Position numbers and translations under genes: made by a program
The notes under the pieces: model-generated
What the model was told of the DNA's origin: nothing
The model's database searches: none
The model's input: the letters and a program-made list of their open reading frames with translations, nothing else
Shown: one piece after another, positions 32,931-64,000 of the stretch
Layout of the letters: each line of letters opens with the position of its first letter
How positions within the stretch are numbered: the first letter of the stretch is position 1
Assembly: GCF_964204865.1 (NCBI RefSeq)
Contig: NC_135254.1
Span: forward strand, 11,599,001 to 11,663,000
DNA: 64,000 nucleotides
From: Styela clava
Lineage: Eukaryota > Chordata > Ascidiacea > Stolidobranchia > Styelidae
Direction: 5' to 3'

Positions 32931-32994
32931 GCCATGGTTGCCAGTAAATTCCGGGACAACAGTAGTCCAGCCCGGGACACGGTGGTGACACGTC

Positions 32995-33545: not shown

Positions 33546-34565
33546 CTGTACGCGAGCATCCGTTGTCTGATGTGAACCGTTTTTCGAAAACCAGGTCGGA
33601 CCTGTCAGCCATTTTTTCATTCCCCGACTGCGGTCGGAGATCTGAGTGTAACGAATATTGCACTCAAAGCGAACATATTTCGGGTCACCCATGCGTTCAA
33701 AACTTTGAATACTCCCGACTGCGTTAGGAACTTCTTCCGAGGATCCCATCGCGTCTGGAGGGCCTGGTGTGGTCTTCTTGACAGTGTTGAATTCCACTAG
33801 TGGATTCTCTATGCACTTTGAGCCCTTTGCTCATTAAATCAAGTTCAATGATATCGCGGCCTGGATTAGTTTGTTTGTATTCCACTTTTTCCCAACAACT
33901 TGCCTCCACAAACTCACGATCGGAGATGGGCTTAGGCCCACTTAGATGACATCCCGTGCCTTAGTTATTCCAATTTTAATTTGCAGTTATTGCACACTTT
34001 TTTTCCACGGGGATTACTTTAATTAGTTTGATCGTTTTCTTTTTAATCAGATAATTTATAAAACTTTCCCGAAAAAGCAGAGAATGTAGGACAGATCGTA
34101 GCACATATTTTTTGTGGTAAAAGCACCTTTTTCGTAAAACGTGCAATTTTGGAAATGGTAACAAGGTATTATTTGTTACTAAATTTCTAAGGAACATTAA
34201 AAAAAAAATTTCCAAGTAGTTCTCTACGTCTCTTATGTGCGCTACGAAACTGAAAGATAAACGGCCTCGTCTTGCGGGCTATTCGATTAGCTGCAAAATA
34301 GCTGAACAGCGGAAATACGACAAAGACCTATCCCAATTTAGGCCTTTTGTATCAAGATGTTGATATTTTTTCCATTACATCTGCACTTTTTTCAGTAGTT
34401 CTTAAAGGAGTGCAAAACAATTTCCGTTTTCGAAATTTCATAATATTCATGAATATGTCGCACAAAATTAAATGAGACCATAACGTCACTGCATTAAAAA
34501 TCATTATCCTCTTCGTCTTCGTCACTTACTTATGTGAACACGGGTTTTCTATACTTGTTCAAATC
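33546..34565. repeat. Dispersed repeat remains
   Basis: 33976-34265 is the inverted counterpart of about 26110-26300, sharing AAATATGTGCTACGATCTG / CAGATCGTAGCACATATTT words and GTAGCGCACATAA. The rest (33600-33950 and 34270-34560) has no supported gene. Part of 33600-33930 may still be retroelement 3' sequence, given its higher GC. Confidence 0.5.
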
Positions 34566-38715: not shown

Positions 38716-41336
38716 GTGGCAATCAATGCAACTGTACCATTTGTTAGAAACAAACATTACTGCGCTGGAGCCTTGGTGTCTACGAAGCACGTTGTTACAG
38801 CAGCCCATTGTCTTGCGTGAGTATTTACTATGGATACATTCATTGTTGGTGGAGCAATTTCCTCCATGTTGCAAAATGGCGGTGTTCAACTAGTAAGATT
38901 TTATGAAACATTATTAATATAACACTCAAGAACGCCTTATACTAAAAACATTTTGTCTAAAACCAGTCTTATCTAAAAGGTAAGTACAAATGAGCAGCGA
39001 CTATGAACGTCAGAAAATGATTATATAGCGCAGGGATCGGCAACCTTTAGAATTGAAATAGCAATTTGGAATTCTTTCCATCAACTTCAAATCTACTCGC
39101 AGCCGCAACACGTCAGTGGTTATTGAACCTTTTAGATAACCAATTATGGTGCAATAAGCTGGTTCTTACTAAAAAATCCAAATGAAATAAGAATGGTACA
39201 ATAATTCATTCTATGTCAAAGTGAAAACAACTTGTAAAATAAATAAAAAATGTTATGGCCGATTTGAATCACATTACTGCAACACATTTTTACCCTCCGC
39301 GACCTACACTGGTAACAGCTGTGTGTAATTAGTGAAGTTAATTTGGCTCATACCTCCACCTTTCATTAAATCCTCACCGCTTCTAAAAACTACTCTAACC
39401 TATTTGCTTTACGGGAGTCAGAGCTCCGAGAACAAAGCGCCCCGTGCGGCTCCAGAACCGCTGGCATAGTGGAGAACGCTGATATTCTTATGCTATAATA
39501 TATATTCACAGGAATCGCGATACTGGAAAAGCGTATCCTTTGAATTCGTTTCTGCTCAGTTTTGGACTTCTACGATTGTCGGATTCTCCAATGGCTACCA
39601 GGACGGTAAAGAATATGTATTTCTGGCCACGAAAAACAAGTTATAATATTGGCAAAGTATTCGACTATCCTCGTCATGATATAGCCGTTATTGAGGTAGG
39701 TCAATATCGATTGAAAGAATTACATTTCAATTAGGAGCCAAATAGAATTATACTCACATGTACAAATATTACTATTTGGAAAATCTAGGTGGACGAGATG
39801 ATTTCCTTTGAGCCTAGAGTTTAATAACGTCTCTCGATATAATTTTACTTACATTTTTGCAAATTGACTTTGGTTTAACTATTTTTCTTGTTGTTATTGT
39901 TGTTTGCCGTTTGCTGTATATATTTCTCCTGATATGCCTTTTCTGTATAAATTTCTTCTCGATTGTTTTTCTTTAAATTAATTCATTATATATTTTGCAA
40001 GGTTGCGTTCACTGTGAAGTTTTCCAATAATTTATGGGTTATAGTCAAAATATGTTCTACTACAACTATTGCATAGTAATAATCTTGAGAGTTATTTTTT
40101 TACAATAAACCAGTAACAGAATAATAGTTGCCGCTGCTTAGACCTAACGAGGCCCTTCGCGACTCCTGTCGAACAACTAACGCCATTAATCTATTTATAC
40201 TCTGTGCCAATTTTAGTGCATTTGTTTTTTGTGACGACAAATAAAAGATTAGCTGACTAACTAGTCCGGCAAGTAACATGAGTGGTTCAGGTTTCATATC
40301 TTCATTTATTTTAAGACACCTTAGAATCAGATTTCATTTTCTTCATACAGCTTTCGCAACCGGTGAGAATATCCTCCAATATTTATCCCATCTGTCTTCC
40401 GCACGGGGAAATCACCCCTGAAGATACAACAGGGTTAATTGCAGGCTGGGGAATAAGTAAGTATTATATTTTTATGTTTATGATTGTAATACTCATTTGC
40501 TTCTACAGTGTTAAAAACACTACCCATTCCCTGTTAGTCGATTGTTAGTAGAATCGCACAGACTTGACAAAACTAGTACTGCGCCCAACCTGCAATGCTT
40601 TTCTATCATTTATACTGAAGTTATCTTTGATGGTGTATCAGGGTATGGATGGTGCCGGAAATGTTTAGTTTCACATCACCCACATGTAATGCTCAATACC
40701 AACCTGTGTTTGCCTCCCTGTTGGTTCTTATTGAATCAAGTGTGTCGTGACTCCTATTTTTTTGAAGCGTTTCATGAACTATTTTCAGATTCTGCGAATG
40801 GAATACTCAGCCAAACTCATTTGCAAGAAGCTGCTGTTCAAAATTTGGATATTGACATTTGTCGTGTTGGTTATGCAAAGCATAAATCATTAATACGTAA
40901 GGAAGTCAGTTATGCGCAAACAAGTAATGATATATTGTGTGCGGGAAGCATTCATAAAGTAGTAAATACATGCCGGGTAAGTCTAATTCAAAGTATGAAT
41001 GAAAATTCATATTTCATATATTACCAACTAACGTGAAAATATTCACGGTTCATAATGTTACCAGACAGATCCTGTTTCTCCCAACTGTTGCTATTGTTCA
41101 ATTATTTTTATTTTTAAAATTATAATTTCCAGGGTGACAGTGGCGGACCTTTGATGTTCCAAAGATGTGAAAGCTGTAGTTGGTATTTGGGTGGAATTGT
41201 GTCTTTTGGTCATCCAGATTGCACAAAAAAAATACCCGGCGCTTACACAAAAGTTTTGTCTTACGAAAAATGGATAAGAGAAATTATCAAAGAAGCACCG
41301 GATCACTTTTATTGTTCTAAAAAGGTCGGACCGTAA
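38716..41336 (+). CDS. Chymotrypsin-fold serine protease (S1A), 5' incomplete
   Basis: Five exons: 38716-38816, 39512-39695, 40351-40456, 40789-40976 and 41133-41336. All are GT-AG with matching phases and encode about 260 residues ending at TAA 41336. The catalytic triad is complete: His in VVTAAHCL (exon 1), Asp in RHDIAVIE (exon 2) and Ser in CRGDSGGP (start of exon 5). Other family marks are HYCAGALVS, IYPICLP, GLIAGWG, DILCAGS and IPGAYTKV. Disulphide cysteines surround His and Ser as usual. The S1 pocket position six before the active Ser is Asn (NTCRGDSGG), not the Asp of trypsins or Ser of chymotrypsins, while SFGH and PGAY supply the usual glycines. The signal peptide and activation site (Ile-Val-Gly-Gly region) lie on upstream exon(s) not found. 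Probably secreted. Partner and substrate unknown. Confidence 0.93.
39031..39465. mobile_element. Decayed hAT element in protease intron 1
   Basis: CAGGGATCGGCAACCTTTAG at 39031 is a hAT-type left end. About 430 bases on, GTGCGGCTCCAGAACCGCTGG is the usual sub-terminal piece of the same kind of element (normally followed by TTGCCGACCCCTG), but the last bases are lost. It is wholly intronic. Confidence 0.6.
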
Positions 41337-42055: not shown

Positions 42056-42828
42056 GAGTAAGATATTTCGACTACATTGCAAATATGTTTTTCGCTTGAT
42101 ATACGTTTGTTCGAGTAGCGTCAGATTAGATTTTTAGTTTTTATATTGGCGTAATCTAAAGACTCTCAAGACTCACGGCTTACGGGTTTTGAATAAAAAC
42201 AGCTGGTTTTGCTGATAACGGGTTACCACCATTTATTTACTTTGTCACGTTCCATAAAAAGCAAACAAACGAAAGTGAAAGATTAAAATGATTACAGTTG
42301 AAGAATTAAATAAATCTCAACGAATCTTCAAATTAATAAATTCAGTACAAAGAGTGTTCTTGCACTCACCCGTGGAGATCTCTCAAATCCATCGCATTTT
42401 TTGAATTTTGTATTTTTGGACGCCAGGTCAAAAAAAGATGTTGCGAAATGAACGAGAATGACATAGGTCTTCTTGCTTAATAATTCTTGGTATAAATCAG
42501 AGAAAAATAAACAAAAACCAGATTTGTCAGTTCCGTTTCCAAATGCCAGATTTAATTGCATTCGAGACTTTAAACTCTGCTAACTATTTTGCTACTTCGG
42601 CATTCGAACCAATATCAATTTGATCTGCGATGCAAGTCTCTTCAAAGCTACATAGCGAACCGAGAACAGCTTTCTGGCCCCAAGTGGTGCCGAGACCAGT
42701 ATGTTCCCCAGCTTTTCTCTTTAGGGGGGGGGGTTCAAAATTTAGGGGGTGGTAAATAATTTGGTATTAGAGATAAAACTAGGCTATTTGCATTCTTAAA
42801 AAAATGGTATGTATTTAAGGCTGGGGTT

Positions 42829-42850
42829 CAGGGCGCGCTTAAGCGCCCTG
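42829..42850. other. Short GC hairpin
   Basis: CAGGGCGC and GCGCCCTG are perfect complements separated by six bases, giving an 8-bp GC-rich stem. It lies in sequence found only in copy A of the segmental duplication. No function can be assigned. Confidence 0.5.
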
Positions 42851-43769
42851 AGAAAATTTTGAAAAATAGGCTCTAAGCTTGATTTTAGATACACCTAGCA
42901 TCGCAGTTTGTTATGTAATAAAATCAATAATTATAATATTTAGCTGATAGAATTCTCGGGGAATAGATAACAAGCACGGCTTTCAACCGAAAATATATAC
43001 TACTACGTTTCAACAAGTAATTTGCAACTGATAGTGACTAATGAAGTTACTTGCTCATCTGGCATTGTATGAATGGCTACTTATGGCTTGTTTTGTTAAA
43101 CATTTCTAATTTTTTTGAACATGTTTGTTTGACTTTTGTATGAATTAAATTTTGAAATACGCTCGTCAACTGATCATGATGTCGCATAATGTTGTATTCC
43201 TTCAGAACTGAAATATTTTGTAAGGAGACAAATCGCTGAAGTTTGATTCTTTTCGATAAAGAAATAAAAACGCTGTCATTCATCTAAAAAACGTCTGTTT
43301 TCAGTTCCTAGTTTTCGTTTTGTGACATCTTTAAGCTTTCTTAATATATGGCTGATATCTAAAATACTGCAGTGTGTAATCATAATACCCATACCTATAC
43401 ATAAGATACCGGAATAATTCAATTGTTACGAAATAAACGTGCCACGTATTATATACTCCTGGTTGCTTGCGATTTTTTTTATTGTTATTGTATTCTTATT
43501 TGTGCGTTTAGCATATTTAACAATACAAAATATTTGTGATTTCTAAATTTTGCAAGGCAGCGATAGACTATCAGCCATGTGTGCAGTTTGGCCTGAGATC
43601 AAATAGATAATAACATTATCCAATCCACACTTGGGCCGATCACTCAAATCGTTTTTCTTTTACCTCATTTTCGTATTTGCACTTCGAGTCCAGATTGTTG
43701 GGTCGTTTTGAAAATATGTATAATTTGAGATTGAGTAGTGCATTGAAAATTGCACTATTTCCTCTAGGC

Positions 43770-44902
43770 CAGGGGCGGCCAACCTTTCACATACCATGCG
43801 CCACGTTTTAAACATAATGTTTCAGATGCGCCGTAAATCTCTTGTATTCCCACGCCTAATGTCCGCTTCTTGTATCCACTCATTTAGAGAATTACGGAAT
43901 CACTGAATTAAACACTGAATGAATAAATTACAATGACAGCCGCATATATATAGTTAACTCAACGAAAATTGTCGTATCCACGCAAAAATTCGAGCAATTT
44001 ACGATAAACAGATTACGATTGATTACGAAACAGGGAACCATTGTGACGCCATGCTTCAAGTAAAAACTACAGCCTTCCTGAAAGTAGGAGAAAAACGCAC
44101 TCTGTCTTAGTTATGAGCATTACGCAATAAAGCTGTTTTTAACAACGAAGAGAAAAAGGTACGATTAAGAAGTAAAGTTGGGCGTAATATTATGACAACA
44201 GGCCTTTAGTATCAATATCTACTCTACTCTACTCTACTCTACCCTCGATTCTAATTGGCCTTTGCTAATCAGCTGTTTGGCCTAGCGTCGCGTGATTTTA
44301 CTCCAGGCTTCTTCGAGATTAGTACCTGCGTCACAGCAAGCGATTTTACGCTTCGCTTTTGTTGACAACGGTCATTTGAAGTTTGGATGAAAAAGGTGGT
44401 ATTTAGGGGTCATTTTCAGCATGTTGTGGGTTGATTTATAATAAATTTTTTAGACTTGGGCAATTCAACTGGTTGTTCAATGGTTATTGGGTGACATTTG
44501 GGAAGTCTGGGCAATGGAAAATCCATGTTTCAAGCTGATAAATGACGATTTTCTATTTTTCCAGAAGTTCTGAACTTTTTACTTCAGTTGGAAAAAATAG
44601 TAAATTTTACTAATTTTTGCTAAAAGTCTAGAATGAATGTCATAAATTCCGTCCAAAAGCTAACGTCGATAATCGCCTGTTGTTTCTAATTCCAACAAGC
44701 CGTAAGTGGGCGACGTGGAGTAAGGAGAATAGATTTTAGGTACAATCAAAAGTCACCATGTAAATCGCAAAAAACGGCTTGGGGTGGAGAAGCCAAGTGC
44801 AATTAACAATTTTGGCATGAAAAGGGTTAAAGATGCAATGCGCCACCTCTAATCATGCAATGCGCCACGTTTGGCGCATGCGCCATAGGTTGGCCACCCC
44901 TG
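43770..44902. mobile_element. 1133-bp hAT element with perfect target duplication
   Basis: CAGGGGCGGCCAACCTTTC at 43770 and GGTTGGCCACCCCTG ending 44902 are inverted ends; CATGCGCCACG / TGGCGCATGCGCC words lie inside each end. CTCTAGGC occurs exactly at 43762-43769 and 44903-44910, fitting nnnTAnnn. It inserted three bases into the older transposon at 43767. No transposase frame. A CTACT microsatellite (44218-44244) is inside. Confidence 0.94.
44218..44244. repeat. (CTACT)n microsatellite
   Basis: Five consecutive CTACT/CTACC units within the hAT element at 43770-44902. Confidence 0.85.
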
Positions 44903-45930
44903 CTCTAGGCTATTCCAAGTGACACTACAGGACAATTCCAGAAATTTTGCATGTTGTTGGATGCAATATATTTTCACATTTTCAGCTACATGTTTTGTTT
45001 CATTGTCCAATCAGTTGCTTTATTGAATATGTAAAAAATTGCACAAAAGTTACACCCAACACTTACTTAATAGATAAAAAAAAATATAGTAAAATATAGC
45101 GTGACACTACAGGGCGGCAAATCCACCATGTACTAACAGTACGTTGTGTTATGCTGTAAATTTTTGCGATGGTACAGTGGGAGCACATAATATTTTCTGG
45201 TGCAGTAGCTGAACTACCCCTCTATGTGTTGCTCAAGTTACTCAATGTAACAATGTAAATCCATGCTAATAATGTGCATATTGTATGTGATACTACAGGA
45301 CGTGACACCACAGAACATTTTTCCATTTCGGAATAGCGGCCTCTATCATCTCTTAAAATTCTGGTAATAAATCGTTAAATGGGTGAAGAAATGTCCTACA
45401 ACACTGCAAACATTTAAACTTTATTAACTTAAATCCAGTGCGTCAATTCCATATGAAATAACTGTACCACACGATCAAACACTTTGTGTCAGGAATCATC
45501 ACAAAATATGTCAATTATACCAAAATTTCTACATTTCAGGCCATTTTTTATAAACTATCAAAAACCTGGGTGAAATTTTATATTGTTCGATGAAATGAAT
45601 GCAGTCCAATAAATTTCCAATGTCTTTTGATATCAAAAATAAAAAACATTACTTTCACTACACTTTTTAAAAAATTTATGGAATTCAACTTTTGCTTGGA
45701 ATGGCCCCTCTAATCAATTAAAATTATCTGAGCAAACATCGGCTCATTACTAAGAATCTACTAAACATATGTAATGAATTGATATTTCCTAATTTGCAAA
45801 AATAAGAAAAGAATTAACACTCATATATCGGAAGTATAAATATTTAAGGGATGGGAAAACGAATTTGACTTTCGTTGCCGATTCGCCAAACCGTTTATGA
45901 CTGCAAGAAGCAATTCTATCAATAAAATAA

Positions 45931-47115
45931 TATTCGATTATTCTTTCGATTGGAAAATTGAGCTATAATAAATAACACATATACTAGTATCTAAGCATTA
46001 AATAAACGAGACCAAATATTAAGTTTAGCAAAACATTGCAGGGTATCGGAAATATTTTCTTATCAGTCTATGTCAAAAATCAAAGTTCAGATATTTTTCC
46101 AACGATCATCCTTAGAACGTCAGTGATTCTGTGATAGAAATTAGGATGATAAAAATGTATTAATAAAAAAAACGGATATAGTCAAATGTATTCACGAAAA
46201 AAAACGGCTGTTTAACATTACATGTCAATATTCTATCATATATCAACTATATTCAACTTTTGAGTTATCAAAAGTATTGCATTTTTTGTCAAACAATTCA
46301 AAAATAGTACATGGCATCCCATTTTGGATTTCCCATTCAATCAATACATACAATCGTTACAGCATTAGAATTCTTGATAAGTGAATTTTATAACATTCAC
46401 TTCATTGGTTTTGTGTATTAAAGAAATTCGTCTTTAAATACAATAATAGTTTGTTGTACGACAAGAAACAAGTTATTACGCAAAACAATTTTCTCGCGTA
46501 AGTAATACCACAATAGGGTGGTTGCACGTACGTCAATATACCGCTGTCTGAACCTCAAAAACTAAAACAACAAACATATTTGGCGTCATTCGCATCAATA
46601 TTGTGGAAAAGGATCTGTATTAGAACTCTCAAGTCTCACACTTGAACTATAGTTTATAAATCCTCCCGTTGTATCCGAAGTAAAAACGCATAAAAAATAA
46701 AATTCCATAATTTATAGGTTTCTTCAACTTTTTTCGATAATAAAATTATTTTTCAGCTAAAGTCAAATAATCAAGTTAGTTTCATAACGCTAATTCTGTT
46801 CTATTTATATGCTTTCGATTGCATCAAGTATGATATTATTTACTCATAAGCGAAATGTTAAATGATTTTAAATAAAATCAACTAAATATCAATCATCAGA
46901 GATTATAGACAATCATGATCAGATTATACATATGACTAATACTGATAGAAAATAATAATCTGGCAATTATAATCTAGTAAATAGGAACGAACATGTATTG
47001 TCTTGACTGACCAGTTGAAGAACATCCAAATATGACCGCTTGCTGATTCATGCGAAACTTGTAAAAACACCTAATTTTATTTTATTTTTTTATTCTAACC
47101 GATTACCCTCTAGGA
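45931..47115. other. AT-rich part of copy A without counterpart in copy B
   Basis: No gene, terminal repeat or tandem repeat seen. The corresponding position in copy B holds the 72-bp satellite. Confidence 0.5.
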
Positions 47116-47850
47116 CAGTAGTTCTCAACCTTTTTGTCTTTGCGGATCCTTCTGGTGCTTTCAAAGCGGTCGCGGACCCCTCAAGAGTTTTTTTATTTGA
47201 AATTTAGTTTATAAAATAAACAGCAACCCGATGTTCCGGAAAGATTAAGCCAAGTCAAAAATAACACCAAACTAGTGGATATTTTCATTTATTTTGTCAA
47301 ATCGAATACACTTAATTGGATTTCTGCTGTTGCATATCAGAAGCAAGTCTTGAAATACGTAGTCGTGTTTTTGCTAACGATAGACGCATATCGTCTTCGA
47401 CGTTTAGTTGGTGACGAGCCTTGGATTTGATATGAACGAGAGCAGAAAATCCACTTTCACAAAGGTAAGTGGAGGCGAATGGAACAATAATACGTAATGC
47501 TTCCATCGATACTTCTGGGTACGACGGCATGATGGCGTACCAAAACTGAGAAAGTGATGTTTTCAGAAAACATTTCACGACTGGCTGAATCATTCCTTAA
47601 ATCAAGTAGATCATCTAGAATTTCCTCTGGAACAGTTGCTATATTTATCACAGGAGAAAATGGAATTCGTGGAAATGCTCGAAGTCCAACTCCTTCTGCC
47701 AGATCAGGAAAATACTTCTGGAGTTCTTTTTCAAGTGATTGTAAATGTTCACTAATTTTCTGTTTCATTTGTTTAACTAAATTTCAAATAAAAAACTTTT
47801 GAGGGGTCCGCGACCGCTTTGAAAGCAACAGAAGGGTCCGCAAAGACTAG
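47116..47850 (-). mobile_element. hAT deletion derivative with transposase 3' end
   Basis: Left end CAGTAGTTCTCAACC at 47116 is followed by TTTGCGGATCCTTCTGG and GCGGTCGCGGACCCCTCAAG. The right side repeats these in inverse order (GAGGGGTCCGCGACCGC .. CAGAAGGGTCCGCAAAG) but stops near 47850, without the final GGTTGAGAACTACTG. Between them is the C-terminal part of a transposase on the minus strand. The terminal sequences are related to other hAT elements whose cargo resembles ZBED-type genes. Confidence 0.85.
47318..47768 (-). pseudogene. hAT transposase C-terminal fragment, frameshifted
   Basis: On the minus strand the upstream frame (47768 to about 47560) reads KYFPDL..PFSP..VPEEILDDLLDLRND. 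The next frame (about 47575 to 47318) reads SLSQFWYAI, YPEVSMEALRIIVPFAS, TYLCESGFSAL, IKSKARHQLNVEDDMRLSLA and LRISRLASDMQQQ. This is the hATC dimerisation region of a ZBED/SCAND3-like hAT transposase. A frameshift near 47560-47575 separates the two parts, and the BED finger and catalytic core are absent. It cannot make a functional transposase. Confidence 0.88.
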
Positions 47851-48780
47851 AGACTAGACAAGTTTAATATAGCCTTGAGGACTTTTTTAGCAAGTCAGCA
47901 AACCAATATTTCCACGAAATTTGTATGCTGTCACTAATAAAGCCACGACAGATAATCAATAACAAATACTGTGTCATAAAATTGAACCACTAAGCTGAAA
48001 TAACCGATTACTAAAAAAAAACAATTTTCTGTTCGAAAGCACAATATTTTATCTGTATTTTAGTGCAATGTTCGATTTTTACGTCAGTATTAAAACATTA
48101 TTGAAAATGTTGACTGCATTTATCCATGGAACTGATAGTTAAAATAAAAAAATGCGTCACAGATTTTGCAATATCTAAAATTTAGAATGCATACAACGAT
48201 TTCAAGTGATCGTGCAGTTCAGCTGGTCTGAAATAGTCCTACTTTAATCGATTCTTCGAAATGTTTTTCTTATTAGATAACACAGGAAAAGCAAATAAAA
48301 TCTTTAATTGTTATTCTGCATGTTTTGTTGTTGCTAGAACGCCACGGGCATAAATTTCGAGTTCTTTTCGTTTAAAAACGACATCGCAGTTGAAGAAGAT
48401 CAACACTCATATTATGCGGACATGTGACGACTTGTTACAGAGTGCGGACAGTTTTCAGAAAGATGTTCCAATGCTCAAAAGATACATCTGTGACATATAT
48501 TTCAGGTTTGAATGTGTGCAAAAATGCCATAAATATACATTTGCGACAAAATGTCCAATGGCAAAGCAGTAAATAATTACAGCAAAGGTATTCATTCTGA
48601 TCGAATGGATTTTACAGAAAAACATCTAATAATAATTCAAGACGACATATTTGCAAGCAATGTTGAGTTCACATTGTCAAAGCACCAGTTATATATATTA
48701 TTATATTTAGAATGATATTTACATATATATATGTTGTGAAGTTTAGATATTTGTAAATTTGCTTATGTAAATTTGACACT

Positions 48781-48840
48781 GAATGCGCGCGCAAGGGGTT
48801 AACTCCAAATAAATTGCCAATAGGCACCCTTTATAAATAT
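48781..48840 (+). promoter_or_regulatory. Conserved upstream block of peptide gene 1
   Basis: AATGCGCGCGCAAGGGGTTA, then CTCCAAATAAA, the CCAAT-like TGCCAATAGGCA, and CTTTATAAAT (TATA-like, 48829-48838). The same order is kept at 59536-59590 upstream of copy 3, where the TATA-like CTTTATAA is about 30 bases before the shared 5' leader. In copy 1 about 130 extra bases separate block and leader. Proposed as a core promoter by position and conservation only. Confidence 0.5.
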
Positions 48841-48990
48841 TTTAGAATATGAAAATATATAGAAATGATCAACTCGTTTTAAATTGTTAAGATGCTATTT
48901 TACCACACTCATGTGCAAATGGCACTGCTTAAGTTCACAGTTCAACAAGTAGATGAAAATGTAGATAAAATATCTTGGTGCTCACGCTTA

Positions 48991-49040
48991 AGAAGAATAT
49001 AGTCTCGTCTTGTCGCCAACAATCACCGTCAATTATATTC
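48991..49040 (+). promoter_or_regulatory. Shared 5' leader block, peptide gene 1
   Basis: AGAATATAGTCTCGTCTTGT, then CG(C/T)CAACAATCA(C/T)CGTCAATTAT, occurs at 48994, 52019 and 59618 upstream of the three signal-peptide exons, always about 200 bases before the ATG. The conservation and position suggest the transcription start and first untranslated exon. Confidence 0.5.
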
Positions 49041-49207
49041 AACTATAGTCAGCAGATTTAATAAATTAAAAAAAATCTTATAATTCATTGCTGTGGTTGG
49101 TATTGAGAGAGACACAATAAAATCATTTTAGCAGATTGTAGGATGTTAACAAATGTTCATCACAAATCTGCATTTTGTTTTGTTTTTGCAGACAATAATA
49201 ACGTACA

Positions 49208-51255
49208 ATGGTAATTAAGTTGACCGTTGTTGTCGTGTGTTTGATTGCTGGAATTTTTGCTCAAAGTAAGTAAAAATTTCACGTTTGGTGATATATTATA
49301 TGTCAGCTATACTGTTATCAGCTATCGTCGTTTCCCGATGGTTTCTGATAATCTGTTACAGTCGTTGAATCTTGTTACTATCAATTGACCGATACTTTTT
49401 TCAAATCTATTTTGACAATTGCCACAACCAAACTAACGCCAATTTTTAATGTTTTAGCTAGAAAATAGCTAAAGTAATTTTTTAAGATTGCTATTAAATT
49501 TGGTTTATATAAATAATAGGGCCTGAAATACATAAATACCAGAACGATATTTATTTTTCAGTCGACGAAAACCCGCAATGATAATGATTGCCGAAATCAC
49601 AAAAAAAATAAATATGAATTGTCGCTTGTTAACCAATGACCCAGGGGGCACCTATTCTTTTCTCTGTTCAAAGCAGATATAAAACGAATAGCATGTTGCC
49701 GAAAAGCGGTTATTTAGTCAATCAAAAATAGTGGTATATATATAAATATACATGAGGTTTCTAAACTTTACAATTCTGGACGCAATTACCACAGAAAACT
49801 GAATTTGATTTTATTGAATTGGAAACAAACACATAAGAGTTTTACATTTCATGAACAACTATCCGATGCAACATGTGAGATTTGTGCACATAAACGATTA
49901 TATATCTGAGAATGCGTACAAACTTTAGTTTCCATGATTTCAGCGTTCATGCGGTCGAATAAAAATTATTAATCGAATGGATTGGTATTTCGCAACACAC
50001 TCAAATTATTTAGGAACAAATATCATATCATTTGTTTATTTTTTACATTCATGTTTTTTTTTTCGAGAATCATTTTCGTTGTATTTCGTGTACGTTCGCA
50101 AAAGAAAACTCTTGGGTGTCATCGTTCCTATAGTGTAATCGTAATATATGGAAACGTTGCAAGTGGCGTTGAGATGCACATATTTCATACTAGGTCTGCA
50201 GCATTAGAAAGCATTAGCTATTCATAAATGCTAAAGGTACGTGGCATTCCTAAAAAAATTGCCAATGTATGAGGTTTTCTACTGAATTTGAACTCCCACG
50301 CAAACCAGTGCAAGCCGACAGTTGAAAATTACATGTCTTTGCGTGATCGCTGAGATATAGTTTAAAATCGGCCAAGCTAGCTTATGGAAGGGGGGAGGAT
50401 CTTCAAATCGATCTTGGGTAATATTTGGGAAAAAAAAAATTTCGGATATAAAGTAGGTCACTTTATCTTCCAAACCAGCGAGATTTTCATGTTGATCTTT
50501 TTAAGGAAAAAGTGGCCGAGAAACATGACTCAATCCATCTCTTAAAAAAGAAGAGGGCAGACTACTATCAAGCATATTCTTTCGTACGAGGAAGCGTGGT
50601 ATACTAAAACGATATCGGTGACGGGGATGTTATTTTGCACTTGTTAAAATTGGCGAAAAGCACTTTCGCACTTTTTTTTCAACTGCGAAGCACTTTCGCA
50701 CTCATAATTTTCCAACAGTGAACACTGGAACACGGACTAACTCAGTTTGGAAAGCTCCAATTTTTAGCATTTTTTTTAAGACAAGTTACAACACTGAAAA
50801 ATAGAGGATCTTTTTTTGTAATGATTGGAAGATTAGCAGAAATATTAAAATTGATTCTTCTGTTGTCAACAACTTGCAGAGAATGTTATTTGAATAAAAA
50901 GTTTTTAGGAATCCGAGTTCTGTTGTTTTTGAACAAATCTGTGCCAAGCAGTCTGGGCCCATTTTTAATGCCCCAGAGCCAGTTAACGAAATCCTTTGAG
51001 ATTCTCAGACAAAAACTATGAAGTTAATAAAACTGTAATATCAACATCAAGGAATTATGTGAGCAGAAGTTTTTTAGTGTTTATTTGTTACTATTGTTAT
51101 GTTTTTCAGGTACTGAAGCTGCTTCTGGAATTATAGGAGCCAGGTCATTGTATATTGCACAAGATGATGTCACAGACAAACCATTCATATACGCAATATA
51201 CGAAAGAGGGAACATATTTTTTATAAGAAGAACGATGAATCCATCAGTAAAATAG
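49208..51255 (+). CDS. Small secreted peptide gene, copy 1 (complete)
   Basis: Two coding exons, 49208-49265 and 51110-51255, joined in phase 1 across GTAAGT..TTTTTCAG, give 67 residues. Exon 1 encodes MVIKLTVVVVCLIAGIFA, a textbook signal peptide, with likely cleavage before Gln-Ser. The mature part, about 49 residues, begins QSTEAASGIIGARS, has a Tyr/Ile/Phe-rich centre (FIYAIYERGNIFFI) followed by an Arg-Arg pair, and has no cysteine. No known peptide or domain is recognised. The 5' leader has an acceptor (TTTTTGCAG, 49191) 17 bases before the ATG, so there is an upstream non-coding exon. AATAAA at 51541 could end the transcript. Exon 1 and its leader are repeated at 52258 and 59839. Expression is not shown by sequence. 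Confidence 0.7.
49266..51109 (+). other. Intron of peptide gene copy 1
   Basis: The 1844-base intron has GTAAGT and TTTTTCAG ends. The stretch 49360-49455 (TTGAATCTTGTTACTATC, ACCAAACTAACGCCAATTTTT) is kept in copy 3 near 60450-60530. No other gene inside; an 81-codon frame at 49982 is unsupported. Confidence 0.55.
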
Positions 51256-52010
51256 GATCTTGAGAACAGAGAATAATATGTATTAGTTTGGCTGTTCGTT
51301 TTATAGTTTCTCATATAATTTGTTAAATTTTGAATCCGGTATTGAATTCTTTTAAAATTTTTGATATTACACCCTAACAAAAATACTGATATTAGTTTTG
51401 GTGTGACGTGTAAGATATATTATTTTAAAAAAACATCTTAATCTATTCATATTAGTATTGATAAGCGGTACTCATAAATTCTATCACATTTTCATTACTA
51501 CTTTCGTTAAAATTTGCATTCATGGAAATTCTTTACAAAGGAATAAAATACATTTTGTGATGACTAGAGTGAACTGAGTTATAGCCAGATTATATATGAG
51601 TCAGTCTTTCGGAATTGGTAATATTGTGATTAGAAATATCACCAAGCAAATCAAAAATGCAATTCTAAATTTTCTTGCTCTTCAAAGTACCGTATCTCAG
51701 AACAAGGGGTGCGTATTAGGCATTAATATGGAAAACATCGACAACAATTATTAATCCTTATTTTATGCTTACCGGTAACTTGCTAATAATTCTCACATAT
51801 ATTATTCTTAATTGTTTTATTTCATTTGTTATAATCAGATCATGCTTGTTTCGGCGGAAGCATACCCAATCTAACAAAATTTAGGGTTAGTAAAAGTAGA
51901 AAGAGTCTTAATCAATTCTTTACTTCAAGGTCAGGAAACGGGTAAATTCAAATCTATAAGAACATCCGCTGTACTCCGCTAACTGCTGTCATTGTCTGGT
52001 CTGGCCGTTT
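51256..52010. other. Spacer between peptide copies 1 and 2
   Basis: AT-rich. AATAAA at 51541 is a possible poly(A) signal for copy 1. Otherwise no supported feature. Confidence 0.5.
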
Positions 52011-52062
52011 CTATATAAGAATATAGTCTCGTCCTGTCGTCAACAATCATCGTCAATTATAT
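52011..52062 (+). promoter_or_regulatory. TATA-like box and leader block, peptide copy 2
   Basis: CTATATAAGA at 52011 abuts the shared leader block AATATAGTCTCGTCCTGTCG at 52019. The sequence upstream of this box does not match copies 1 and 3, so copy 2 has a different upstream region. Confidence 0.4.
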
Positions 52063-52257
52063 TCTCTTGTTATATTGTATTATTATAACTATAGTTAGCG
52101 GATTTAATAAATAAGAAAACAACAACCTGTAATTCATTGCTGTAGTTGGTAATGAACGAGGCTCAATAAAATCTTTTTAGCAGATTGTAGGATGTTAACA
52201 AATGTTCATCATAAATTTGCATTTTTATGTTTTTGCAGACAATAATAACGTACAAAA

Positions 52258-52316
52258 ATGGTAATTAAGTTGACCGTTGTTGCCGTGTGTTTGATTGCTG
52301 AAAGTTGTTGCTCAAA
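52258..52316 (+). pseudogene. Signal-peptide exon, copy 2 (frameshifted)
   Basis: Same exon 1 as at 49208 with acceptor TTTTGCAG at 52238. The end is altered from GGAATTTTTGCTCAA to GAAAGTTGTTGCTCAA, one base longer, so splicing at the donor (GTACGT instead of GTAAGT) would leave the wrong phase for the known second exon. The original hydrophobic run is also broken by SCC. No second exon was found: about 70 bases after the donor the sequence becomes copy B of the segmental duplication. Probably a pseudogene; read straight through it gives 60 codons. Confidence 0.65.
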
Positions 52317-53255
52317 GTACGTAATAATTTCACGTTTGGTGATATACTATACGTCATGTGTTGTAATTTTTCCTTTGGGCGGATATATTCCGTATACATT
52401 GCAAATATGTTTTTTGCTTGTTATAAGTTTGTTCGAGTAGCGACAGATTAGATTATTGGTTCTGAAATTGGCGTAATCAAATAACTCTCAACACCTACGG
52501 CCTCTGGGTTTTGAATGAAAATAGCTAGTTTTGCTAATAAAGGGTTACCACCATTTATTAATTTTGTGCCAACAAACGAAGGTGGAAGATTAAAATGATT
52601 ACAGTTGAAGAACCAAATGAATCTCAACGAATTTCTTCAAATTAATACATTCAGTACAAAAAGTGTTCTTGCATATGGAGACCTCTCAAATCCAGCACAT
52701 TTTTCAAATTTGTATTTTTAGACGCCAGGTCAGAAAAAGATGTTGCGAAATGAACGAGAATGACGTAGGCCTTCTTGCTTTATAGTTGGTATAAATCAGA
52801 AAGAAACAAACAAAAACTAGATTAGTCAGTTCCGTTTTTAAGTGCCAGATTTAATTGCATTCGAGACTTAACTCTGCTAACTATTTTGCTACTTCGGCAT
52901 TCGGGCCAATTCCAGTTAAATGAGTCTCTGCGTTATAGCGTTATAGTTGAAATACGATTAACTCAACAAAGACAATTTCAATTTGATCTGCCATGTAAGT
53001 CTCTTCAAAGCTACCTAGCGAACCGAGAACAGCGTTCTGGCCTCCAAGTGATGCCGAGACGCTGTTTGTGGAACCACGTATTATATACTCTTAGTTGCTT
53101 GCGATTTATATTTTATCATTGGGTATTTTTATTATGGTATTCTTATATGTGCGTTTAGCATATTCAACAATACAAAATATTTGTGATTTATAAATTTCGC
53201 AAGGCTGCAATAGACTACCAGCCATGTATGCAGATTGGCCTGAGATCAAATAGAT

Positions 53256-54305
53256 CAGGGTGGTCCAAACCCGGGCTCGCGGGCCACATGTGGCCCGCCG
53301 CTTCATTATCTGTGCCCCGCGTCGCATTTGCGCGAGGGGGAACAAAAAATCGCATTTGGTGTTGTTTCGTCATAAAAATCTTTTGACATATTGTTACATC
53401 AACAATGTCACTGAATTAACTAGTGTTATGGCTAGCTGAGGCAGCTAACGAAGATGAATAAGGTGTTTGGCTAGTCTAAATTATTTACTGGCTTTCTATT
53501 TTTTTGGTCGGGAATATATGCTAACAAAATAGCAATGTATTAGCCTAGGTTGGCTATGCATGATAACTAACTATTGATTTAATGGCCGAACGATATAATT
53601 CCTGCCGGGTGTTTTTTTCAAACAGCCGGAGCAGTAGTACAAAAAATGCTGCCTATATGTCAGAAAATTTAGTAATTACTCTTCTGTATCTCAAATTTGG
53701 TAAAATTCGGTAATCAATCAATCAATCTGCAGGTATTTGTGAGTTATTTTGTAAACATTACTTTGAAAAGAAAGTTGACGAATTCAAACAGATTTTTGAC
53801 TGGATATGGGAGGGAAAATTCCACAGTGCTTGCTCACTATTTCCGCAAGTTGTGTCGGTGACAATCTAAAACGTCATTTTCTCCTCATGGCACTTTCTCT
53901 GTTATGAAGAGTTTGAAATCTTACATTAAATGTTGAAATAGTAAGATTTTTGGACATTTCAGTAAGTTTTTTTTTTGGTGGTTTTTGCATGTTTTAGCTT
54001 TCAAATAATGATCAATGTGTTTAGACAATAAAATAGTGTTTTTTTCGTATTCCACTGTTTACCTCTTCTTAGCACTATTGTGACCCGCGAACTATACATA
54101 AATAATAGTGTGACAACCTTGCGCCAGACACAAATAATATTAAATAACAACAGACTCTTAGGACATCTTAACAAGGAATGATTAAAAATAGCATTACGCG
54201 CTCGAAGAGTGCGACGGGAAAAAGGTTACACGCATGAGCGAGTTGATTAGAGTGTTACATGTAATAATGTGAGGGAAACAAATAAACTGGCGTTGGACCA
54301 CCCTG
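53256..54305. mobile_element. 1050-bp hAT element with perfect target duplication
   Basis: CAGGGTGGTCCAAACCCGGG at 53256 and CGTTGGACCACCCTG ending at 54305 are inverted ends. AAATAGAT occurs exactly at 53248-53255 and 54306-54313 (nnnTAnnn). The paralogous position in copy A (ATCAAATAGATAATAAC near 43605) is a clean empty site with one AAATAGAT. GGGCCACATGTGGCCCG lies just inside the left end. No transposase. Confidence 0.96.
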
Positions 54306-54659
54306 AAATAGATAATACCACCATCCAATTCTCACTTGGGCCGATCACTCAAATTGTTTCTCTTTTACCTCATCTCCGCATTTGCATTCCGAATCAGGAT
54401 TATTGGGTTGTTTTGAAAATGTGTATAGTTTCAGATTGAGTAGTGCATTGAAATTGCACTATTTTTTCTAATCATCAAAAATATTTGAGCAAACGTCAGC
54501 TCATTACCTAGAAATTACTCATTATTGGAAGTATATATATATATATGAGTAAACGAATGAACCTTTGTTGCCAATTTGCAAAACCGTTTATGATTGCAAG
54601 AAGCAATTCTACCAATAAATTAATATTGGACAACACTTACAGGCTGAAGAAAGAAACGG

Positions 54660-57600
54660 ATGAATTGGGTGAATTCCAGAAGTTGGAGTGTTCTCAAAGA
54701 AGTAATATATAAAAACAATAAAAGGCTGAACACTAAAATGAAGAAGTTGATGAAATTTTGTTCGACGAATAATGAGGTAGTTGAAGTCACTGAAAAGCTG
54801 AACACTAAAAAGAAGAAGTGGATGGAATTTCTTCCAACGAATAATGAGGTGGTTGAAAACACTGAAAAGCTGAACACTAAAAGGAAAAACGGGGATGAAA
54901 TGTCTTCCGACGGGAGGTGAGGTAGGTGGTTTGAGTCACTAAAAAGCTGAACACTAAAAGGAAGAAGTGGATGAAATTTCTTCCGATGAATAATGAGGTG
55001 ATTGAAGTCACTAAAAAGCTGAACACTGAAAGGAAGCAGTGGGTAAAATGTCTTCCGAAGGGTGGTGACGTAGTTTGAGTCACTAAAAAACTGAACACTA
55101 AAAGGAAAAAGGGGATGAAATGTCTTCCGACGGGTGGTGAGGTGGTTTGAGTCACTAAAAAGCAGAACACTAAAAAGAAGAAGTGGATTAAATTTTTTCC
55201 GAAGGGTGGTGAGGTGGTTAAAGTCACTAAAAGGCTGAACACTAAAAAGAAGAAGTGGATCAAATTTATTCCGACGAATAATGAGGTAATTGAAAACACT
55301 AAAAAACTGAACACTGAAAGGAAGAAGTAGATGAAATATCTGAAATTAGATGAAATGAAACGAATGAATTGGGTGAATTCCAGAAGTTGGAGTGTTCTCA
55401 AAGAAGTAATATTTAAAAACAATAAAAGGCTGAACACTAAAATGAAGAAGTTGATGAAATTTTGTTCGACGAATAATGAGGTGGTTGAAAACACTGAAAA
55501 TCTGACCACTAAAAGGAAAAAAGGGGATGAAATGTCTTCCGACGGGTGGTGAGGTAGGTGGTTTGAGTCACTACAAAACGCTGAACACTAAAAGGAAGAC
55601 GTGGATGAAATTTCTTCCGACGGAAGATGAGGTGGTTGAAGTCACTAAAAAGCTGAACACTGAAAGGAAGCAGTGGGTAAAATGTCTTCCGACGGATGAT
55701 GAGGTGATTGAAGTCACTAAATAGCTGAACACTAAAAAGAAGAAGTGGATGGAATTTCTTCCGACGACTGATGAGGTGGTTGAAGTCACTAAATAGCTGA
55801 ACACTAAAAAGAAGAAGTGGATGAAATTTCTTCCAACGAATAATGAGGTGGTTGAAAACGCTGAAAAGCTGAACACTAAAAGGAAAAAAGGGGATGAAAT
55901 GTCTTCCGGCGGGTGGTGAGGTAGGTGGTTTGAATCACTAAAAAGCTGAACACTGAAAGGAAGAAGTGGATGATTTTTTTTTTCGATGGGTGGTGAGGTG
56001 GTTGAAGTCACTAAAAAGCTAAACACTAAGAGAAGAAGTGGATGAAATTTCTTCCGACAAACGATGAGGTGGTTAAAGTCACTAAAAAGCTGAACACTAA
56101 AAAGAAAAAGGGGATGAAATTTCGTCCAACAAATAATGAGGTGATTGAAAACACTAAAAAGCTGAACACCAAAAGGAAGAAGTGGATGAAATTTCTTCCG
56201 ACGAATAATGAGGTGGTTAAAAACACTAAAAAGCCGAACACTAAAAAGAAGAAGTGGATGAAATTTTATCCAACGAATAATGAGGTGATTGAAAACACTA
56301 AAAAGCTGAACACTAAAAGGAAGAAGTAGATGAAATTTCTTCCGACGAATAATGAGGTGGTTGAAGTCACTAAAAAGCTGAACACTGAAAGGAAGAAGTG
56401 GATGAAATTTCTTCCGACGGATGAATGAGGTGGTTGAAGTCACTAAAAAGCTGAACACTAAAAAGAAGAAGTGGATGAAATTTTTTCCGACGAATAATGA
56501 GGTGATTGAAAAACTGAAAAGCTGAACACTAAAAGGAAAAAAGGGGATGAAATGTCTTCCGACGGGTGGTGAGGTAGGTGGTTTGAGTCACTAAAAAGCT
56601 GAACACTAAAAGGAAGAAGTGGATGAAATTTCTTCCGATGAATAATGAGGTGATTAAAGTCACTAAAAAGCTGAACACTGAAAGGAAGCAGTGGGTAAAA
56701 TGTCTTCCGACGGGTTGTGAGGTGGTTTGAGTCACTAAAATGCTGTACACTAAAAGGAAAAAGGGGATGAAATGTCTTCCGACGGGTGGTGAGGTGGTTT
56801 TAGTCGCTAAAACGCAGAACACTAAAAGGAAGAGGTGGATGATTTTTTTTTTCGATGGGTGGTGTGGTGGTTGAAGTCACTAAAAAGCTAAACACTAACA
56901 GAAGAAGTGGATGAAATTTCTTCCGACAAACAATGAGGTGGTTAAAGTCACTAAAAAGCCGAACACTAAAAAGAAGAAGTGGATGAAATTTCTTCCGACA
57001 AACAATGAGGTGGTTAAAGTCACTAAAAAGCTGAACACTAAAAGGAAAAAGGGGTTGAAATTTCTTTCGACGGGTGGTGAGGTGGTTAAAGTCACTAAAA
57101 AATCGAACACTAAAGGAAGAAGTGGATGAAATTCTGTTCAACAAATAATGAGGTGATTGAAAACACTAAAAAGCCGAACACTAAAAAGAAGAAGTGGATG
57201 AAATTTCTTCCGACAAACAATGAGGTGATTGAAAACACTAAAAAGCCGAACACTAAAAAGAAGAAGTGGATGAAATTTTTTCCGACAAACAATGAGGTGG
57301 TTAAAGTCACCAAAAAGCTGAACACTAAAAGGAAAAGGGGGATGAAATTTCTTTCGACGGGTGGTGAGGTGGTTAAAGTCACTAAAAAATCGAACACTAA
57401 AGGAAGAAGTGGATGAAATTTCGTCCAACAAACAATGAGGTGATTGAAAACACTAAAAAGCCGAACACTAAAAGGAAGAAGTGGATGAAATTTCTTCCGA
57501 CGAATAATGAGGTGGTTGAAAACACTAAAAAGCCGAGCACTAAAAAGAAGAAGTCGATGAAATTTTATCCGACGAATAATGAGGTGGTTGAAAACACTAA

Positions 57601-58065
57601 AAAGATGAACACTGAAAGAAAGAAGTGAATGAAATTTTGTCCAACGAATAATGAGGTGATTGAAAACACTAAAAAGATGAACACTAAAAGGAAGAAGTAG
57701 ATGAAATTTCTTCCGACGAATAATGAGGTGGTTGAAGTCACTAAATAGCTGAACACTAAAAAGAAGAAGTGGATGAAATTTTTTCGGACGAATAATGAGG
57801 TGGTTGAAGTCACTAAATAGCTGAACACTTAAAAGAGGAAGTGAATGAAATTTCTTCCGACGGGTGATGAGGTGGTTGAAGTCACTAAAAAGCTGAACAC
57901 TACAAGAAAGAAGTGGATGAGATATCTTCTGACGAATAATGAGGTGATTCAAAACACTAAAAAGCTGAACACTAAAAGGAAGAAGTGGATTAAATTATTT
58001 CCGAAGGGTGGTGAGTTGGTTAAAGTCACTAAAAAGCCGCACACTTAAAGGAAGAAGTGGATGAA
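54660..58065. repeat. 72-bp satellite, about 46 units, with higher-order repeats
   Basis: The unit CTGAACACTAAAAGGAAGAA..GTGGATGAAATTTCTTCCGA..CGAATAATGAGGTGGTTGAA..GTCACTAAAAAG is 72 bases (24 codons). A 76-base variant has GGAAAAAGGGGATGAAATGT and GGTAGGTGGTTTGAGTC. A unique 65-base leader (GAATTGGGTGAATTCCAGAA..) occurs at 54660 and again at 55364, a 704-base higher-order period. A four-unit block of 287 bases repeats at 56830-57116 and 57117-57403. Because 72 is a multiple of 3, frames stay open: up to 96 codons on + and up to 295 codons on the minus strand. Frameshifts and stops recur, so protein coding is unlikely. Confidence 0.93.
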
Positions 58066-58814
58066 ATTTAAAGTTCAATTATATGGTAGAGAACGTCGTA
58101 TCAACCGGGTAACAATACCCGTCAGGGATGAAAATCATACTAAAAATACGTTATTGGCAGGCGCGCAGCCTGGATTTTTAAAAAAATGGCGGTTAAAATC
58201 AGAGTCGCAAATTTTCTGCAACGGACGTCGCCGCGATTGCGAAACAAGATTAAAGCATTACTACCCAGAAAATACCATAAAAATGTGTGATGAGGTGCCC
58301 GATTATACATTGTTTGAATTCATCAAATCTCAGCTGCTCCTGCAACACTTACTCTGTGACACACTCCATCGTAATGCGGACCATCCTAAAACCAAACATA
58401 TAGTTGTCTCCGTTTTATTTTTAGTATTTTACATTGCCTCCTTCTCATTCTTTACAATTTGAGTTGCAGAGACATCCCTTTATTTATATTTAGCATCTCG
58501 TCGCTGATGAATTCAGTATAATAATTCAGAGTTCCGTGTGAGAACAAAAAAGGAATTATTATCATCCTCGTGGCACAAGACTTATGTCGAAGCAAATTTG
58601 TGATCTCGGTAGAGTAAATACCGAAATAAAGTTGTTTACGGCCTAAATAACATGTCACGCTGACAAAAACAATCGGCTATTTTGACAAAATGCAATCACA
58701 TGCGTTATTAGCGACTTTTTCATTCCTTTAACACAATATATGTTTTTATAAATTTTGCGACTTTTCGCGAACTGCAAGTAGTTCAAGCAAAAAGAGTGGC
58801 AGACAAGGCCCAGA
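58066..58814. other. Right flank of the 72-bp satellite
   Basis: A frame of 133 codons starts in the last unit and runs to 58462 with a basic first half and a hydrophobic end. No domain is recognised. The DNA has no counterpart in copy A, so it came with the satellite or was lost from copy A. Confidence 0.35.
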
Positions 58815-59535
58815 GGCCTTTTTTAGCAAGTCAGCAAACCGATATTATCACGAAATTTTTATGCTGTCACTAATAGAGCCATGACAAATATATAATTATT
58901 TGTGTCATAAAATGGAACCACTAAGCTGAAATAACCGGTTACTGAAAAACATTTTTTTTGTTCAAAAATACAATATTTTATCTATATTTTAGTGCAATGT
59001 TCGTTTTTTACGTCAGTATTAAAACAATATTAAAAATGTTGACGGTATTTATCCATGGAAGTGATTTTTTGATCACTAAAACAAAAAATGCGCCACAGAT
59101 TTTGCAATATCTAAAATTTAGGATGCATAAAACGATTTAAAGTGTTCGTGCAGTTCAGCTTGTCTGAAATAGTCCTACTTTAATCGATTCTTCAATACGT
59201 TATTTTGTTTATTAAATAACACGGGAGAAGCAAATAAAATCTTTTATCGTAATTCTGCATGTTTTGATGTTGCTAGAATGCCACGGGCCTAAATTTCGAG
59301 TTCTATGCGCTTAAAAACGACACCGCAGTTGACGAAGATTAATTAACACTCATATTATGTGACATGTGACGACTTGTTACAGAGTGCGGACAGATTCAGA
59401 AACATGTCCCAATGCACGGAGGATACATCTGTGACATATATTTCAGGTTTGAATGTGGCCAAAAGGGCCATAAATATACATTTATATGTCGTGAGGTTTG
59501 AGTATTTGTAAATTTACTTATGTAAATTTGAGACT

Positions 59536-59665
59536 CAATGCGCGCGCAAGGGGTTAACTCCAAATAAACTGCCAATAGGCATCCTTTATAATTAATCCTT
59601 TATGCTTACGCTCGAGAAGAATATAGTCCCGTCTTGTCGTCAACAATCACCGTCAATTATGTTCA
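59536..59665 (+). promoter_or_regulatory. Conserved promoter and leader, peptide copy 3
   Basis: CAATGCGCGCGCAAGGGGTT, CTCCAAATAAA, TGCCAATAGGCA and CTTTATAA (59584) match 48781-48838. The leader block AGAATATAGTCCCGTCTTGT follows at 59618, about 30 bases after the TATA-like site, a normal distance to a start of transcription. Confidence 0.5.
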
Positions 59666-59838
59666 GGTATAGTTAACAGATTCAATAAATTAAAGAAAAA
59701 TCCTATAATTCATAGTGGTTGGTGTTGAAAGAGGCACAATGGAATATGGAATATTTTTAGCAGATTGAAGGATTTTAACAAATGTTTATCATTAATCTGC
59801 ATTTTTTATGTTTTTGTAGACAATAATAACGTACAAAA

Positions 59839-59896
59839 ATGGTAATTAAGTTGACCGTTGTTGTCGTGTGTTTGATTGCTGGAATGTTTGCTCAAA
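59839..59896 (+). pseudogene. Signal-peptide exon, copy 3 (second exon missing)
   Basis: The exon encodes MVIKLTVVVVCLIAGMFA with an intact acceptor (TTTTTGTAG, 59820) and donor (CAAA/GTAAGT), one residue different from copy 1. Its intron can be followed to about 60530. There the sequence switches to the MOXD1-like duplicate, and no match to the second exon of copy 1 (51110-51255) is seen up to the window end. It is either a truncated copy or spliced to an unknown exon further on. Confidence 0.6.
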
Positions 59897-60549
59897 GTAA
59901 GTAATAATTTCACTTTTGGTGATATACTATATGTCAGCTATATCACTGACTAAACCACAGATTATTATCTGATGCATCAGTTTCAAATATCCGTTGATTG
60001 ATACGGATTGAAATTGTTAACGCATACGGCAACGTAGAATTAAGAACGTGGAAAAAGATATATGAATGAAAGTATATCCGGAAATACAGAATGAAAGCTT
60101 TTGTCGCGATGATTGTGTGATTCTTTGACAAATGTAAGGTTTGTTTAATAACTGACAAAAAAACGCGGAATATGTAAACTTGTATACAGTGAATGGCAAA
60201 ATAATATCTGCATCTGCATTACACTATATCACAAATTTTATTCTGTAACATTCCGTTTGAACAAAAAAAGACTCCCTCAGACAAGCATCTAACAAATAAC
60301 ATCTAACAATTCATTGATGTAAACTGCTTGTCCGGCTTTGTTCACGTCCGGCTTAAAGTTTTGTTAACGTCCCCATAACGCTCTTTTTTGTTCATAATTT
60401 ATGCATTCTTGGCATGTATGTCGTTTCTAATAATATGTTTCAGTGGTTGAATCTTGTTGCTATCGATTGACCGATATACTTTTCAAATCTGTTTTGAAAA
60501 ATGCCACAACCAAACTAAAGCCAATTTTTTGAAATGCTCAGTCTTATGA

Positions 60550-63500: not shown

Positions 63501-64000
63501 CAAAATATTACTTTGCTTGTTATCAGCTTGACTTACAGATTTAACACATTCGTTTGTACAGTGTGCAGTGCAGACATAGTTCCCGATTTGAAAAAACGCC
63601 AACATCATATTTTCGAAGAGTAGGCTTATATGTAAACCGAAATCCAGAATTATCGCGAACTTCTGGAATGCCACAAAAGATTGACACTGTTAAACTATTT
63701 TATGACAAGTTTCGATAAGTATGATTATATTTGATAGGGGAGTATAATATTATACACAAACTTGCAATCTTGCTTGGATGATGCCACTTACAGTTTATGC
63801 TATACAAGTCTAACATAACCTTGACTTCTTAATACTAATGCTGTGTATTGTTTTAACTGGGGAAAAAAATATTTTCGAGAATGTGACCTTCGACCACGTT
63901 AGGGTTGTTGTATTGAATTTTCTATTGTACATAAACCGGATCTCCTGGTCCACCGTCTAGAAAACCCGCTTCTTTTGGAAACGTCAGTCCCTGTTAACTC
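60550..64000 (-). pseudogene. Partial, decayed duplicate of the MOXD1-like gene
   Basis: Co-linear with 16113-20341 in the same orientation; it runs past the window end. Remains of exons 14, 13, 12, 11, 10, 9 and 8 are at about 60990-61083, 61435-61535, 61975-62093, 62758-62911, 63027-63118, 63537-63668 and 63880-64000. Breaks: an in-frame TGA in exon 14 (CAGCAATGA); a 9-base deletion and lost G at the acceptor of exon 12; a 9-base deletion and donor GT changed to GC in exon 11; a +2 frameshift in exon 10; an internal deletion in exon 9. Exon 15 is absent: homology stops near 60550. Exon 13 is still open. The left junction lies in the intron of peptide copy 3. Confidence 0.9.
60665..60770. 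mobile_element. GAAGTATG-family MITE in the pseudogene
   Basis: CTCCTAAAGTATACGCACCA..GATGGCGC at the left pairs with GCGACATCTTGGTGCGCAGTACC at the right, with TCAGGTTAGGGTTCAGG in between. The parental sequence at about 16213-16232 (AGTATATATACAATGAGC) lacks it, so it inserted after the duplication or was never in the parent. Confidence 0.75.

Follow-up and report, generated by a model that had tools for sequence, protein, structure and literature searches.

The question raised by this locus is what kind of gene is formed by a signal-peptide exon and a short second exon whose joint product had been placed in no known family. In the original prediction no family came to mind for that product, but a profile HMM of serpin tails, phmmer and hhalign identified the second exon as a serpin reactive-loop/C-terminal exon. 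Within the window, i.e. the whole 64-kb stretch of DNA that was analysed, the locus is probably, judging from its sequence, a serpin locus without its core, composed of a putative signal exon, a 1.84-kb intron and a loop/tail exon of serpin origin. The elements of the gene model are as follows.

49192..49207, + strand: 5' leader, after a TTTTTGCAG acceptor (AG at 49190-49191)
49208..49265, + strand: exon 1 (copy A), putative signal peptide MVIKLTVVVVCLIAGIFAQ plus the first base of a codon, ending in phase 1; donor GTAAGTAA
49266..51109, + strand: intron, 1844 bases, the expected site of the serpin body
51110..51255, + strand: exon 2, serpin reactive-centre loop and C-terminus, (G/S)TEAASGIIGARSLYIAQDDVTDKPFIYAIYERGNIFFIRRTMNPSVK; TAG stop at 51253-51255
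51542..51547, + strand: AATAAA, candidate poly(A) signal 287 bases 3' of the stop, weak because AATAAA occurs 1.9 times per kb on the + strand

The exon positions, the splice sites (with TTATGTTTTTCAG as the acceptor of exon 2), the phase 1 join and the 67-residue product were all as originally predicted, and the Arg-Arg pair close to the C-terminal end of the product is present. The description of the product as cysteine-free holds for the mature part but not for the precursor, which has one Cys within the signal peptide. Inspection of exon 1 by eye showed Lys4, a 14-residue mainly hydrophobic stretch and an Ala preceding Gln, and it is possible that a small secreted product is made from this in-phase signal exon and the short second exon, which would fit the sequence. 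The open frame of exon 2 alone is weak evidence, because such a candidate within 2.7 kb is not rare: 16 candidates with a phase-1 acceptor and an open frame of at least 48 codons were found on the + strand, and by reading, six of these are in frame with recognised exons, one is exon 2 and nine are neither. The codon score of exon 2 exceeded that of 94% of 6707 stop-free non-coding windows, while the five exons of a nearby trypsin-like gene reached 77-98%; these trypsin exons were included in the training set for the score and exon 2 was excluded from it. What lifts exon 2 above chance is its apparent homology to serpins, which the original prediction had missed.

This homology was most evident in a search of 2885 window ORFs of at least 15 residues with an HMM of 17 vertebrate serpin tails, entered by hand, in which only the ORF of exon 2 was significant (23.8 bits, E 4.9e-6); the next-best window ORF scored 6.8 bits, and the maximum over 10 versions of the window, each shuffled within 1-kb blocks, was 11.0 bits. 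An hhalign comparison of exon 2 with 10 of those 17 tails gave 97.1% (E 7e-11, 30% identity over 46 columns). When the PDB was searched with phmmer, all six matches to the 67-residue product were serpin C-termini (weak, E 0.086-1.4) and all nine matches to exon 2 alone were serpin tails (weak, E 0.05-1.8), including one named 'ICE inhibitor', which we take to be a serpin. The nearest PDB sequences were those of the protein Z-dependent protease inhibitor and neuroserpin. The best match to exon 2, the protein Z-dependent inhibitor, aligned without gaps from the hinge to P1, with Tyr opposite Tyr, the latter presumably being the P1 residue of that inhibitor.

By our own count of P-positions, exon 2 encodes the hinge TEAASG, with P14 Thr, P13 Glu, Ala-Ala-Ser-Gly and P1 Tyr, and the count from P14 to P1 is that of the usual serpin loop. 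The loop is followed by DKPF, two strands and NPSVK, with the stop at the usual serpin end. The hinge consensus of inhibitory serpins has small residues at P12-P9 and Gly at P15. The P15 codon is split by the intron, so that an upstream exon ending in G would give Gly, and a join to exon 1 gives Ser. The locus resembles serpins in the hinge (G)TEAA, the loop length with P1 Tyr, DKPF, the two C-terminal strands and the NPSVK end; the corresponding end of antithrombin is NPCVK. It is unlike serpins in that the body was not found at the locus, that Arg replaces the near-invariant Gly of s5B and that the s4B-s5B turn is short, by two residues. The Arg-Arg pair starts at this s5B site, which in serpins is nearly always Gly; as its first Arg occupies the Gly site of the last serpin strand, the pair is not necessarily a site of hormone processing.

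Structure prediction for exon 2 alone (mean pLDDT 65.8) placed strands at 11-18, 25-31 and 35-39, which presumably correspond to s1C, s4B and s5B of the serpin topology. A Foldseek search of this fold against the PDB returned nothing significant (best E 0.26), and the best 50 of 672 rows contained no serpin and many chemokines; without a significant match, the fold search provides no fold evidence for or against a serpin origin. No Pfam family was matched by the 67-residue product or by exon 2 alone (48 residues), and the PF00079 model was not reached. An NCBIfam match to TraA (E 0.041; 14 bits, where the cut-off is 50) was rejected, as it spans residues 2-38, mostly the signal peptide. A scan of viral contigs for relatives of the product gave 24 pattern matches, none of which is a relative.

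The serpin body itself, which would comprise about 350 residues with sheets A, B and C and helices, was not found, and the locus was for that reason classified as serpin-derived rather than as a serpin. A full-length serpin HMM built from six serpins was run on six frames of the 64 kb and detected exon 2 (11.0 bits, E 0.033) but no body, the next match after exon 2 scoring 4.0 bits, and profile searches of the intron (49266-51109) in six frames detected no serpin similarity. As a leave-one-out control, each serpin in turn was withheld and pieces of 60 residues were scored; all 36 pieces rose above the noise of the window. The controls are vertebrate sequences and outscore exon 2 (15.5-71 bits versus 9-14 bits), so that a body exon that has diverged very strongly might escape detection. 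A tblastn search of the window with six full-length serpins gave matches at chance level only (best E 0.21; exon 2, E 0.65). Pfam was empty in the three + frames of 42.3-52.2 kb. The same X-masked Pfam approach picks up small copper-monooxygenase exons elsewhere in the window, but it misses exon 2 itself, and the empty + frames alone would therefore not exclude small exons. The window contains zero N. Absence of the serpin body from the locus, through deletion or assembly error, is the most likely explanation.

The original prediction also stated that the signal exon recurs, with its acceptor, donor and leader, twice within 11 kb. The two recurrences were found, 3.1 kb (copy B) and 10.6 kb (copy C) from copy A, but they are not exact copies, and they lie in a region that appears to be duplicated.

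52258..52316, + strand: exon 1 copy B, one-base insertion, frame shifted; weaker donor GTACGTAA (GTACGT)
59839..59896, + strand: exon 1 copy C, frame intact, one Ile changed to Met; acceptor TAG for CAG
42063-52384 and 52385-60529: the two units of an apparent tandem duplication (about 10 kb, with indels); identity in matched blocks 82-92%

The leaders of A and C are equal except for a 3-base insertion in C. Copies A and C agree at 57 of 58 exon positions and at 17 of the 17 preceding bases (49191-49207, with the 3-base insertion of C left out), as compared with 863 of 976 positions (113 mismatches) in three flanking blocks. At the flank rate, one mismatch or fewer in 75 has a P of about 0.001, uncorrected for the choice of the stretch. 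Exon 2 is single-copy in the window, as a profile search found no copy of it behind B or C. In-phase second-exon candidates of at least 35 codons numbered four behind A (exon 2 and three others without any likeness recognised by reading), one behind B and none behind C (to 63000).

Stretches of 42063-49447 repeat in the same order at 52385-60529 with offsets of 8.7-11.1 kb, and from the offsets and the order we infer a tandem duplication of about 10 kb. It is also possible that the apparent tandem consists of divergent haplotypes placed side by side by the assembler. Copy B lies directly 5' of the second unit, in which the copy of the 42063 region starts at 52385. The second unit breaks off at 60529, which leaves copy C without whatever came after, and a copy of the 16115-20351 region starts at 60550. 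The latter region belongs to a copper type II monooxygenase/DOMON gene, presumably MOXD1-like, at 16115-24200 (- strand), of which a partial second copy occupies 60550-64000 (- strand) up to the window end; the two copies are 76-88% alike in matched blocks. An element at 47136-47847, with inverted ends of about 90 bases that are 90% alike, lies 30 bases upstream of the duplicated block that holds copy A, and its interior has a weak likeness to a hAT dimerisation region (E 0.0093, below the cut-off).

The intron in the P15 Gly codon corresponds, by our own count, to position 344a in antitrypsin numbering, which is not among the intron positions given in the available excerpts of PMC2746811 and PMC2556349. 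Lancelet and vertebrate serpin genes are described as having only intron 339c in common (PMC2746811), and the sea urchin gene Spn-1 as having a single intron, in the signal-peptide region, although its authors mark that prediction as doubtful (PMC2556349). Insect and nematode serpins with multiple loop-exon cassettes are also described (PMC2556349). The nearest precedent found is provided by the short transcripts ST1C5 and ST1A5 of human SERPINA1, in which an untranslated leader exon is joined directly to the last exon and which could encode tail peptides of 44, 36, 21 or 10 residues (PMC5249162). These transcripts and the locus are alike in that a leader exon leads straight to the serpin tail exon and the body is skipped. 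In SERPINA1 the full gene is present and, the leader exon being untranslated, no signal peptide is added, whereas the locus does encode a signal and its DNA yielded no body. A second parallel is that synthetic reactive-centre-loop peptides block Manduca serpin-3, with insertion into sheet A as the most likely mechanism (PMC7359039). The likeness to the locus lies in the derivation from the hinge and, by analogy, in beta-sheet A insertion, but the Manduca peptides are synthetic, short (the best had five residues) and not gene-encoded (PMC7359039). Among the matches listed, the serpin literature contained no signal-plus-tail serpin gene.

The following origin is proposed. The ancestor would have been a secreted serpin gene with a signal exon, one or more body exons and a loop exon preceded by a phase-1 intron that splits the P15 Gly codon. 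The body would have been lost between two phase-1 introns, so that the remaining ends would still be in frame, and exons 1 and 2 would be spliced as originally predicted. Signal peptidase would cut after Ala18 (our own reading), giving QSTEAASGIIGARSLY-IAQDDVTDKPFIYAIYERGNIFFIRRTMNPSVK, and the mature peptide of about 49 residues would start with Gln-Ser-Thr-Glu-Ala-Ala, the serpin hinge, and would be almost exactly loop plus tail. Covalent protease trapping needs the serpin body, and a peptide without the body cannot trap a protease by itself. The peptide might instead fill the beta-sheet A gap of full-length serpins, as synthetic loop peptides most likely do; alternatively, it might act as a decoy substrate for proteases or as an immune signal, as proposed for antitrypsin tail peptides. 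We tentatively suggest, by analogy and with more doubt than confidence, that the locus may be a dedicated gene for a secreted serpin-tail peptide, which may regulate full-length serpins in trans via beta-sheet A insertion. Serpin tail peptides have reported activities in mammals, where they come from proteolysis or from unusual transcripts of full genes. A locus from which evolution removed the body and kept signal and tail would offer a natural experiment on whether selection acts on the tail by itself as a product.

That a functional tail-peptide gene is present is possible, on the sequence features given above, though short of an even chance. The other explanation of comparable weight is that the serpin gene died with the loss of its body, and that exons 1 and 2 are unexpressed and look intact as the loss is recent. 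Both explanations share the same origin of the exons and between them divide the probability attached above to a serpin-derived locus. A dead gene would agree with the broken copy B, the partnerless copy C and the truncated tandem duplicate, and also with the Gly to Arg change at a near-invariant site and the shortened turn, which fit relaxed constraint and hence decay. Features that argue for a working peptide are the frame, open to the natural serpin C-terminus, the consensus splice sites on both sides, the intact hinge and normal loop length, a codon score like that of real exons, and the conservation of exon 1 between A and C above that of the flanks. We consider it about equally probable that the tail peptide works and that the locus is a recent relic, with a slight lean to the former because the splice sites and frame are intact and because of the codon score. 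If the gene is dead, the locus is a defunct serpin of the ordinary kind, and a warning that the short tail of a serpin can be mistaken for an unknown peptide.

Several explanations that would do without a coreless gene were also considered. Exon 2 could be the ordinary last exon of a live, full-length serpin whose body exons are missing from the assembly, having been collapsed or misplaced. Exon 2 retains the hinge and loop length of an inhibitory serpin and the region is duplicated and rich in repeats, where assemblies often fail, but the window is without N, no frame of the 64 kb yielded a body fragment and conserved s5B positions are altered, which together make this unlikely. A still smaller probability is assigned to exon 2 being one of several alternative loop exons of a serpin with its body beyond the window, the signal exon belonging elsewhere. 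Multiple loop-exon cassettes are reported for insect and nematode serpins, also according to the title of a 2002 paper by Kruger cited in PMC2746811, and the intron sits in the loop hinge, as in serpin genes with such cassettes; against this, genes for a TatD-like protein, a gamma-tubulin complex component and a trypsin-like protease lie upstream on the same strand in the window, the 51 kb upstream yielded no body, and the window has no second loop exon. The least probable explanation is that exon 2 resembles a serpin tail by chance and that the product is a new family or there is no gene. Pfam is silent and it is not rare for an open frame to follow an acceptor of compatible phase, but such a coincidence is hard to reconcile with an E of 4.9e-6 against window ORFs of at least 15 residues, with shuffles of 11.0 bits at most and with 97% in hhalign.

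The trypsin-like serine protease gene lies at 38716-41336 (+ strand), and about 8 kb separate its end from the serpin-tail locus. Five exons were recognised, which carry the His, Asp and Ser motifs expected of such a protease (E 1.1e-37 for Pfam Trypsin; MASP-2 as the best match by sequence in the PDB); the 5' exons of the gene were not recovered. The possibility that the signal exon is part of this gene at 38.7 kb was rejected, as a profile built from copies A, B and C detected no further copy in the window. Further upstream, a tandem array of units of about 198 bases (97-99% alike) occupies 1-1215, a TatD-type DNase gene and, after it, a gene for a gamma-tubulin complex component that runs past 12735 lie at 9107-12735 (+ strand), and a reverse transcriptase-like fragment (RVT_1, E 2e-5, below the cut-off) lies at 32989-33570 (+ strand). 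Downstream of exon 2, a minisatellite of 72-base units at 54600-58070, with 33 overlapping matches of a 300-base reference, has long open frames on the minus strand, including two frames without a Pfam match.
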